IMG/VR virus record: IMGVR_UViG_3300020119_000010
Coordinates: 1 to 23,632 of that record
Reading direction: 5' to 3' (one strand)
DNA from: a virus
DNA length: 23,632 nt
Shown: in pieces, positions 3,701 through 7,132 of the stretch
Layout of the letters: every line of letters starts with the position of its first letter
Numbering within the stretch: position 1 is the stretch's first letter
Notes under the pieces: model-generated
Told to the model about the DNA's origin: nothing
The model's input: the letters and a program-made list of their open reading frames with translations, nothing else
Database searches by the model: none
Program-made: the position numbers and the translations under genes

Positions 3701-5510
3701 CCCCTTTGAGCCCTGCTGCTGTCAGTTCATCATTCGTCTGCTTGACTACAGAGGCAGCATGACTCCACTGCGAACGCATATCAAGTCGAGCAGGCTCAGT
3801 GATCTTCCTGCCGTTCTGCAACACCTCGATAGGTTCAGTACCAGTGACAGTACGAGTGGCCTCATGAAGTGTAGCGTCAGTATCATTGGCGATCTGACGT
3901 GACACGTCCTCCACTGCTGCCTGAGGATGCTTACCTGCTGATGCAATGGCAGCGTTAATCTCAGGGCTTGGTGTCCCCTTAGGTGAGGTGACTTTACCGC
4001 CACGAGGTGTGTGAGGTGACGAGTCGCCATACAGAGCCTTGTATGCAGCCTTCTCATCTTGGCCGTACATGTATGCAGCAGCACGTGCCCTGTTAGCACG
4101 CACGTCCATCTCATTGGCATGGACCTCACGTGCTGCTGACCATGCGCTAGCTCGTGACTCAATCTGAGCAGGGGTCAGATTAGATTTGATAGGCTGTGTG
4201 GTAGCGGGTACCTCATCAACGATGTCAGCCACACCTTGATTGACCTGTGCCCTGTCGGCTTCCTGATTCAACTTGCGGCTGAGCTTCATCGCATTCTTGG
4301 ACGGAGGTCCAGCAGCGGCAGCTTCCTTCACCACATTGCGTAACTCAGGTGACCAACTCATTGGTATAGCAGCGACTTGATTCATTTCTCTCTGAGTGAA
4401 CAAGCCACGTGGAGCCCTACCGGCGACAGGTGTAGCCTCTTGAGCTACGTCCTCTGCCACCTTAGGTGCTACACTGGTCAAGTCACCTTTGCCGAACAGA
4501 CCTAACTGCTGTTCGCCTGCTTGCGCCGCAGCAGTAGGTCCGTTCAACCCCACACGTCGCAACTGTCGTGGGTCAGTTGCGGCGAAACTCTTTAGGTCAT
4601 CTCCCATCTTTTGTAGATCGAAGGCAGGAGCAGGCGCTTTCGGCCCCGCATCGGACAACCTATATGTATCACGTCCGAGTTCATCGAACAACGGGATTGT
4701 TTCAGGTGCCGTGCGTGGTGCGCCAAGCGTATCAGCCACAGACTGAAATGAGTTTCCACCATGTGCACTACCTGTGCTTGGCATACCGGGCAAGGGAGGT
4801 TGAGTCCCTCTACTTACCCGATTCATATTTGGCATACCAAGGTTGGCAGTGTTGCCAGCTTGTGCGCGCTTAGCATGTGACCGGGAGGCTACATTAGCTG
4901 CTGTCTGAGCAGCTTGTTGTGCAGGAGTTAAGCCAGGTGTGTTTGCAGCTATAGCATCAGCAGCACTTGTAGCCTCAGGGACTGCATGACCTATCTCTTT
5001 CTCAGCAGCAGTGACGAACTCTCCACCAGTAAGAGACTTTGCACCCTTTTGTGCAGCCTTACCTAGCCAACCAAGAGGTACAATGTTGAGAGGATCAAGA
5101 GCTACGTCACCAATGAACCCAACAAGACCCTTCGCCCAGTCAGCTGTTTCAGTACCACCGATCTTGTCACTCATGTCAATGACATCACGAGTGCTGGTCT
5201 TATCTATACCCGACAGGCCAGCCCACAAGGACTCAAGTGGATTGTCTGTGTTCGGGTCAGGATCAATGGTGTCCTTGACCAGGTTACGAACGGCGTACCC
5301 ACCGCGTGACAACACATCACCAATGCGAGAGATGATGCCAGGATCATTGTCTACAGGATCAGGAGCAGGCATACTCGACAGGTCGAACTTGTCCCAAGGG
5401 TTAGCTGCGTTGGGATCATACCTCTTTTTGCCCGCACCTGTACTAGCCTGTGCAGCAGCTAGTCTAGCTAGTGCCTGCGCAAGGTGAGTGAAGTTCTCCT
5501 GATTAGCCAC
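780..5510 (-). CDS. Very large internal virion / DNA-ejection protein candidate (1576 aa)
   Basis: Starts at GTG 5510, inside the TAGTG junction, with an AGAGAAG ribosome-site-like run upstream. The N-terminal half is low-complexity, rich in Ala, Thr and Gln and probably extended or helical; residues about 130-155 hold a mildly hydrophobic GFIGDVALDPLNIVPLGW stretch. From about residue 895 the sequence becomes more ordered, with FFRKLLHGFLSRF, IIRPGHQVRNYIGD (about 1150) and ARRVVPYYSWFKQAMP (about 1346). The last segment resembles a basic-aromatic-proline segment I associate with large phage internal and polyvalent proteins. Size and position, after adaptor and nozzle and before the transglycosylase, match the gp16-type inner-core protein of short-tailed phages. 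I see no catalytic motif within it. A tape-measure role is the alternative, but no tail-tube or chaperone genes are present. Confidence 0.7.
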   Translation of the reverse strand: MANQENFTHLAQALARLAAAQASTGAGKKRYDPNAANPWDKFDLSSMPAPDPVDNDPGIISRIGDVLSRGGYAVRNLVKDTIDPDPNTDNPLESLWAGLSGIDKTSTRDVIDMSDKIGGTETADWAKGLVGFIGDVALDPLNIVPLGWLGKAAQKGAKSLTGGEFVTAAEKEIGHAVPEATSAADAIAANTPGLTPAQQAAQTAANVASRSHAKRAQAGNTANLGMPNMNRVSRGTQPPLPGMPSTGSAHGGNSFQSVADTLGAPRTAPETIPLFDELGRDTYRLSDAGPKAPAPAFDLQKMGDDLKSFAATDPRQLRRVGLNGPTAAAQAGEQQLGLFGKGDLTSVAPKVAEDVAQEATPVAGRAPRGLFTQREMNQVAAIPMSWSPELRNVVKEAAAAGPPSKNAMKLSRKLNQEADRAQVNQGVADIVDEVPATTQPIKSNLTPAQIESRASAWSAAREVHANEMDVRANRARAAAYMYGQDEKAAYKALYGDSSPHTPRGGKVTSPKGTPSPEINAAIASAGKHPQAAVEDVSRQIANDTDATLHEATRTVTGTEPIEVLQNGRKITEPARLDMRSQWSHAASVVKQTNDELTAAGLKGEQLAQAKMATVMTRLEAHEAENIAKGIYPEISASGNTYRLSTTDVWKALPPKVLRDMQFTQRNIPISSQLTAAAKTIALVQSGVTDSEKAIREIAAALSAKPGAHWTGQEISSIGTRARRNAEGMWASRDELYKKMLNNEMTFKTRDAVIGKQVGEEVADDVVRRLNDPEVGIGDSMDDIAHVNQEVTRLVRERGASAGAAAVASHAANARMASDVPAIDVTTARSTARNSHVQANSTTWNSSSKAQPGKAKPAGTSQQARQATQTNANSTITTIQAAGAAQGVPVNELVGFTADGFFRKLLHGFLSRFSGGYGQGNFFAVGRGQLNHFGDAAGKYAAVIDKAQAKHALPDAQTAFEALRTGKGKKGLTPEQAAAYDDLLIVSPDAISMSKGVNSWGDTAMFRESLDPETINGIMHKHGVKQSYRPKDNNLEVPEQWREWTDIDNPWQFLANMHNAQMELAARSGIGRYFTKEFGSKVAKPGYIKISRTQGHSDLSHVIDTDMYYPKEAAQQFARYSREIDVNTKINHKLVSDWLDPFLSLWKTSTTIIRPGHQVRNYIGDVLQNGLDLGIRNHPLHYRRAAKVQAANGGFSEALKSGNLDEAYKSLGILTGKDMPKPTGKLMDVSLKGGKQSLSNNQIYWFAHQSGLLLDYRPAEDILKATGKSALTRASNAIESTRPIEFAGKVSTASSDNTRLAHLIGLMSYPKVSRQYDSVESMINGLTARIQKFHPDVKGLTSFEQKYARRVVPYYSWFKQAMPTLFMTTLTHPARVMSVPKAQFNLNVMLGGNPKDMQDQFPANQMYPSFLRNTLGGPFGASDVPGDSGSLMDFGSSPEAAASMFNGDVGENLAGMLNPLIQTPWGIVSGSHPLNSEHYIPDKGEWIDKSIPFVNQIANLSGYSPSGSLESLLSEGKIDPQRAMEQNEKNTLFNQNLLNFMTGLNIQNTDRPTYRKIARNEIKDDIKSKDIFNLMRG

Positions 5511-5647
5511 TACTGCGCCGCTTCTCTGGCGCTGGCCACAAACTCCCTAGCTGCTGCGTTAAGTGTTCCCGGAGGCACATCAATGCCGAGCGACTGAGCT
5601 TGCTGAGTAATCCACTGAGCGAACTCAAGTGCCGTATAGGGATTGAG
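5510..5647 (-). CDS. Coding-like 45-codon continuation after in-frame TAA (readthrough tail, broken gene end or tiny gene)
   Basis: Immediately after the TAA (5650-5648) of the 494-aa gene, the same frame stays open for 45 codons and ends at TAG 5512-5510. The peptide reads like real protein: LNPYTALEFAQWITQQAQSL, then GIDVPPGTLNAAAREF and VASAREAAQ. Its stop shares a base with the GTG of the next gene (TAGTG), the arrangement used elsewhere in this cluster at 9377. No ATG, GTG or TTG occurs in frame before a GTG at 5578, which has no ribosome site. So the segment is either reached by reading through TAA, or is the end of a gene cut by a recent nonsense change or sequencing error, or starts at an unusual codon. 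Without it, this 137-base stretch would be the longest gap in an otherwise gapless cluster. Confidence 0.5.
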   Translation of the reverse strand, partial: LNPYTALEFAQWITQQAQSLGIDVPPGTLNAAAREFVASAREAAQ

Positions 5648-7132
5648 TTAAGGATCAGATTCCTGTCCAAGGTTAGTCTGACGGTATTGTTCAAAGGCAT
5701 CTGCGATCTTCGCTACAGTCTGCTGAGAAAGCTCTTCGTCACCTGTACCATTGATCAAGATGCCGAGAGCACGTGATGCACCTGGGTAGTTACTCATGTC
5801 GAAGTTACCTTGGCCACCAGCCTTAGCTTGAGCAGCCATAGCATCGACATTCAGGTTACCGATAGCAAGTTCATTCTCCCAGTCCTGCTGCAACTCACCT
5901 TGTGCCGTGTTATGCAGAGCCATCTGATTCCCGAACAACTGTTGAATCTGATCTGCTTCCATACCTTGACCCTGCAAGCTGTAACCTGCATTGGCCCGCT
6001 GTGCTTCAAGGTCACGATTGGCAAGTGTCTGTGCCAGTTCAAGTGCAGTGGTGCTCTGCTGACCTGATGCATTAGCCTTGTTGATGTCAATGTTGGCTAG
6101 TAGATTCAGCAGTTGTGAATCTAAATCTTGCTGTGCACCAATGCCAGCACCCTCTTTAAGTAACCCGAACTGTGAGTCGTAGTTACCTTGCGCTAGCTTC
6201 TGCGAATCATAGAACTGCTGCTGTGATTCCGTACCTGCCGCAGCCTGATCTTGTGCATATGCCTGATTGTTGGCACCCTGCTGCAACATCTCGGGGGCAC
6301 TTGTTTCAAGTCCGAGAGCACCAAGTTGCTGGCCGACATTAGCATTAGCCGACTGCTGGTTCTCAGCTATGTCAGCTTGCTGGGCTTCACCTCTGGTGGC
6401 CTGCTCAGCCTTTGTCTGATCATACCTTTGGGCTGTCTCCGCTGCCTTTGCCGCAATGTCTTTGACAAAGTTGTCGTATAGTCCCTTGGTAGCTTCCTTG
6501 CTGGTTGCACCTTGAGCCTGAGCATTTGTTCGAGCAATGTCAAATGCTGCAAGGTAAGGGGCGAAGGCGTCGGCTGCGATCTTCTTTGCTTGTTCAGTGA
6601 AGTCACGCATCTCCACAGTAGGGATATTGAAGTTGTACGCCCCAGGTGCCTCAGGCATACCATAAGGGTTGTCACCTAAGCCAGGAATGTTATACCCTAT
6701 ATTGCCAGGTCCCTGAGGTTTGACTGCCGTACCTACACGTGGAGGTGTCTTACCAAAGGTGCCACCACCACCAGGTACGCTGGCACCTGATCCCGGACGG
6801 CCTGTACCGAAACCAGTTCTACCTTGAGGCTGAGGTACGTTACCAGTAGGTCCAGCCCAGTTACCTAGTGCTCCACTACCTAGAATCTCACCAGGGATGT
6901 CGCGGTTGGGATCATCCCAAATGGACCCCTGACCAATGGTGGTGTTGACTCCGATACTTGAGCGTGGCTGAGCTAGTCCGACAGGGTTCTTCATCTGACC
7001 GTTATTGGCCAGAATCATGTTGCCGCGTGCCTTGATGTTAGGTGTGGCAGTGCCTAACTGGTACGCCCTGATGTCAGCTGGACTGAACCCGTTGTTCTGT
7101 AGCCACTTGACCTGTGTGGCATTGAGGTCCAT
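5648..7132 (-). CDS. Gln/Ala-rich internal virion protein candidate (494 aa)
   Basis: Start ATG 7132 overlaps the previous stop as TAATG. After a short helical N-terminus (WLQNNGFSPADIRAYQ at 10-25), residues about 60-165 are rich in Gly, Pro and Asn and probably flexible. Residues about 170-450 are strongly Ala/Gln-rich and helical, with few Cys or Trp, as in podoviral internal proteins. The C-terminal part (SRALGILINGTGDEELSQQT) looks folded. By order it would correspond to a gp15-like inner-core protein between a smaller helical protein and the 1576-aa protein, but I recognise no family signature. The frame continues past its TAA for 45 more codons, so the natural protein may be about 540 residues. 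Confidence 0.6.
   Translation of the reverse strand: MDLNATQVKWLQNNGFSPADIRAYQLGTATPNIKARGNMILANNGQMKNPVGLAQPRSSIGVNTTIGQGSIWDDPNRDIPGEILGSGALGNWAGPTGNVPQPQGRTGFGTGRPGSGASVPGGGGTFGKTPPRVGTAVKPQGPGNIGYNIPGLGDNPYGMPEAPGAYNFNIPTVEMRDFTEQAKKIAADAFAPYLAAFDIARTNAQAQGATSKEATKGLYDNFVKDIAAKAAETAQRYDQTKAEQATRGEAQQADIAENQQSANANVGQQLGALGLETSAPEMLQQGANNQAYAQDQAAAGTESQQQFYDSQKLAQGNYDSQFGLLKEGAGIGAQQDLDSQLLNLLANIDINKANASGQQSTTALELAQTLANRDLEAQRANAGYSLQGQGMEADQIQQLFGNQMALHNTAQGELQQDWENELAIGNLNVDAMAAQAKAGGQGNFDMSNYPGASRALGILINGTGDEELSQQTVAKIADAFEQYRQTNLGQESDP

Follow-up and report, generated by a model that had tools for sequence, protein, structure and literature searches.

A single in-frame TAA in a virion-module gene of a short-tailed phage is probably a nonsense substitution or a base error

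An in-frame stop codon that is followed by a perfectly open extension raises the question of whether the site is used for recoding, separates two genes or results from mutation or sequencing error. Such a stop is found in the window, i.e. the whole stretch of DNA analysed here, which is a 23.6-kb record classed as viral by IMG/VR. A minus-strand frame opens with ATG at 7132 and runs to GAT CCT TAA (5650-5648), after which the same frame continues as CTC AAT CCC TAT and ends as GCG GCG CAG TAG (5512-5510). The 45 codons of this tail encode the peptide LNPYTALEFAQWITQQAQSLGIDVPPGTLNAAAREFVASAREAAQ, and the TAG overlaps the GTG at 5510, where a gene for a 1576-aa protein begins, as TAGTG. An earlier interpretation made from the letters alone (the sequence-only reading) had described the TAA, the 45 codons and this junction, and minus-strand translation confirmed its coordinates and peptide. 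It had proposed stop readthrough, a nonsense mutation or sequencing error, or a small gene with a non-standard start. Our analysis indicates, with a probability of about 0.88, that the 540-codon stretch 7132-5513 is one gene carrying a single substitution-type stop, which is present in this assembly only (Table 1).

Table 1. Features at the interrupted gene and its downstream junction (window positions).
Feature	Position	Strand	Remarks
Upstream part of the interrupted virion-module gene, 494 codons	5651..7132	-	T7 gp14/gp15 position; putative function
In-frame TAA	5648..5650	-	No counterpart in any of eight orthologues
45-codon tail, C-terminal part of the same gene as the 494-codon part	5513..5647	-	Codon usage, profile match with shuffles, tblastn, domain model
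TAG, probable original gene end, in TAGTG overlap with the next start	5510..5512	-	Orthologues likewise end near the next start
Following gene (GTG start) for a large, internal-protein-like virion protein of 1576 aa	780..5510	-	Weak ribosome site of its own

The gene lies in the minus-strand structural module of a short-tailed, uncultivated phage, which comprises a terminase-like gene, portal, scaffold-like gene, major head protein, gp11/gp12-like tail genes, several small genes, the interrupted gene, the 1576-aa protein and a lysozyme-type transglycosylase. Gene order around the interrupted gene is the same in relatives. The encoded protein gave no Pfam match at E 0.001 and no PHROG match better than E 0.17. 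Its gene lies after the tail genes and before a giant internal protein with a lysozyme, as do those of T7-like internal proteins. In T7, gp14, gp15 and gp16 form the internal (ejection) protein cassette (PMC8954989). The present gene resembles this cassette in being located behind the tail genes and directly ahead of a very large protein, a lytic transglycosylase domain being encoded close by, and in having a helix-rich product; it differs in having no Pfam or PHROG sequence match, in the transglycosylase being encoded by a separate downstream gene and in a C-terminal domain which matches no solved structure. From its position at the gp14/gp15 place, the gene may encode an internal or ejection protein. 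The virion-gene placement suggested by the sequence-only reading is thus plausible from position, whereas its label of 'internal protein' stays putative.

It is important to establish whether the tail is coding sequence. The chance that 45 random codons contain no stop was estimated at ~0.11, or ~1 in 9 (61/64 to the 45th power), and the length of the open run alone is weak evidence for coding. Codon usage is stronger evidence. The tail scores +0.22 bits per codon in its own frame, whereas the two remaining forward frames of the region score -0.42 and -0.29 and the antisense frames -0.47 to -0.15. A score as high as this was reached by only 0.3% of 45-codon pieces taken off frame from known genes, and it lies among the values of in-frame, truly coding pieces, of which 20% score lower. 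A profile of the last 52 residues of the relatives had the tail as its best hit out of 831 six-frame pieces of the window (E 0.003, the next being 2.9), and 1 of 5000 shuffles matched its score. A longer profile gave matches in sequence order on the two sides of the stop, first to the last residues of the 494-codon part and next to the tail. When the tail is compared with one relative at a time, the similarity is weak (shuffle p 0.08, 0.017 and 0.38). These comparisons show that the tail is genuine coding sequence and belongs to the interrupted gene. Codon usage and the profile match indicate that the extension is under coding constraint, a state predicted equally by a newly arisen nonsense mutation. 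No decay is visible in the tail, and the truncation is therefore unlikely to be old; the intact state is compatible alike with a very recent mutation, with an error and with readthrough.

Eight distinct orthologues were obtained from viral contig scans: L001 (529 aa), L004 (547), L007 (565), L016 (529), L018 (563), L020 (534), L021 (563) and L022 (567). L023 and L024, being repeats of L022 and L021 here, were left out of this count. The orthologues are 24-48% identical to the window protein, and all eight are single uninterrupted ORFs of 529-567 codons, ending between 8 nt of overlap with the start codon region of the same large gene downstream and ~10 nt short of that start. The start of the 1576-aa protein, MANQENF, resembles MASKQNW and MADQQSY of relatives. 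None of the eight has a stop at the position of the window TAA; various sense codons are present there, with an alignment gap in L004 and L007. In tblastn, residues 1-543 of the 547 in the L004 orthologue and residues 5-555 of the 563 in the L021 orthologue were aligned, in each case through the window TAA with one stop. No internal stop was found by tblastn in the other window genes with homologues in relatives; the other stop-containing hits were read as spurious antisense or out-of-frame ORFs, or as extending just beyond a gene end.

The peptide scans, made on viral contigs, used as queries the whole protein, its C-terminal 106 residues, its neighbours and several alignments. No relative reaching the stop site exceeded ~48% protein identity in these scans, so that a stop fixed within a tighter clade would have escaped them. 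Four further contigs (L005, L006, L008 and L009) are related in tail or head genes and end before the junction. No homologue of the interrupted protein and no DNA match was found in the annotated phage collection, and the genome contigs gave no matches. L008 and L019 proved to be one 39,650-bp contig with both ends in the virion module. Neither an orthologue of the interrupted gene nor the greater part of the giant gene was found between these ends, and the contig looks like a linear or broken assembly.

The structure of the C-terminal region was predicted with AlphaFold2 from the last 110 residues using nine sequences (pTM 0.66). Four helices were modelled, at residues 21-33, 36-57, 68-85 and 91-109, with pLDDT near 90 for most helix residues. 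The stop column corresponds to residue 65 of this 110-residue model, in a low-confidence loop after helix 2. The tail is therefore predicted to supply helices 3 and 4, the second half of a four-helix C-terminal domain. A fold search of the predicted domain against the PDB and viral models gave no significant match. The full-length model was poor (mean pLDDT 54) and was kept out of fold searches.

The stop is best explained as a nonsense mutation that arose recently in the sampled phage, or as a base-call or assembly error, with roughly even odds between the two. The sequence-only reading had named this option and had advised aligning relatives across the junction; the sense codons or short gap that they carry there, in genes that are continuous, point to mutation or error. 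If the stop is real, ribosomes would halt after residue 494 and the protein would lack the second half of its predicted C-terminal domain. The 1576-aa gene, starting 138 nt further on, would probably lose some translational coupling. Loss of half a domain, together with a 138-nt gap before a weak ribosome site, suggests a cost and hence a recent event or an error, and the intact tail agrees with this. A survey of in-frame stops in otherwise intact prokaryotic genes counted only those present in at least two genomes, which excluded sequence error (PMC7918605). As in those cases, among which mobile and phage genes are over-represented, the stop described here is aligned to an amino acid in the orthologues with good alignment on both sides; unlike them, it is present in one record only and would not pass that survey's criterion. 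The case is an ordinary one. It advises caution, as an in-frame stop with a perfect open extension resembles recoding until relatives are aligned. Gene calls should take 7132-5513 as one interrupted gene, and the stop would be biologically important only if close strains turn out to keep it.

Readthrough of the UAA, confined to this lineage, would give mostly the 494-aa protein and a minority carrying the 45-aa C-terminal half-domain. The intact tail with its coding-like codon usage agrees with such a scheme, as do the position of the stop in a predicted interhelix loop and a hairpin ~20 nt downstream (60-nt window, z -2.16). Under programmed readthrough, the stop should be conserved and usually leaky, often with a stimulatory structure. 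The absence of the stop from all eight relatives argues against such readthrough. The hairpin looks ordinary for this genome, since 29% of 60-nt windows fold as well, and z is -0.85 when 100 nt are folded and -0.07 in a wider window. No Rfam match was found, and an RNA element was rejected; the window contains no tRNA gene, suppressor tRNAs included. The stop and its context (UAA-C) are not of the leaky type, although the C that follows is not the strongly terminating U. Both release factors recognise UAA, and among the stops used in bacteria it is the one least often read through (PMC5289835). The readthrough named by the sequence-only reading as the interesting case is therefore not supported and we consider it improbable; that it is functional, having evolved recently in this phage alone to give two lengths of a virion protein, is a little more doubtful still. 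The A1 protein of phage Q-beta is a virion protein extended by regular readthrough of a UGA stop. The present locus resembles it in having a stop followed by an in-frame coding extension in a virion-module gene, and differs in that the stop is UAA and is absent from all relatives.

The open frame directly after the stop, ending at the start of the next gene, could also be a small gene of its own, with translation beginning by reinitiation or at a non-standard start. However, no in-frame ATG, GTG or TTG with a ribosome site is present near the stop, in agreement with what had been noted earlier. The in-frame GTGs would leave 22 or 9 codons: the one at 5578 has a weak upstream ribosome site, and the one at 5539 is preceded by AGGGAG with a product of only 9 codons. 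Moreover, every relative encodes the homologous stretch as the C-terminus of a single long ORF. A separate gene is thus disfavoured and very unlikely. A 65-aa ORF in another frame (5700-5503) was rejected on its non-coding codon usage. Reassignment of TAA to an amino acid in this phage has nothing to recommend it apart from the in-frame TAA itself and is hardly credible: eight other ORFs of the window end in TAA, several of them overlapping the next start, the module holds a single internal TAA, and there is no suppressor tRNA in the window. It was rejected, TAA being an ordinary terminator in this phage.

Some further features of the window were observed. Only the C-terminal third of the 1576-aa protein matches actinophages, namely uncharacterised proteins of Microbacterium, Cellulosimicrobium and Arthrobacter phages, and these matches hint at an actinobacterial host. 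A block of ~200 residues at 10490-9830, within the gp12-like tail gene (11656-9377, minus strand), is missing in most relatives (L001, L007, L008, L020 and L022) and present in L005. The gene at 14411-12747 (minus strand) matches the tail-fibre and phosphodiesterase PHROGs 16641 and 17803 and probably encodes a virion-associated phosphodiesterase-like domain. Three adjacent genes of 192, 266 and 219 aa at 23627-21716 (minus strand) look, from their sequences, like tandem paralogues, the middle one being 31-33% identical to each neighbour.
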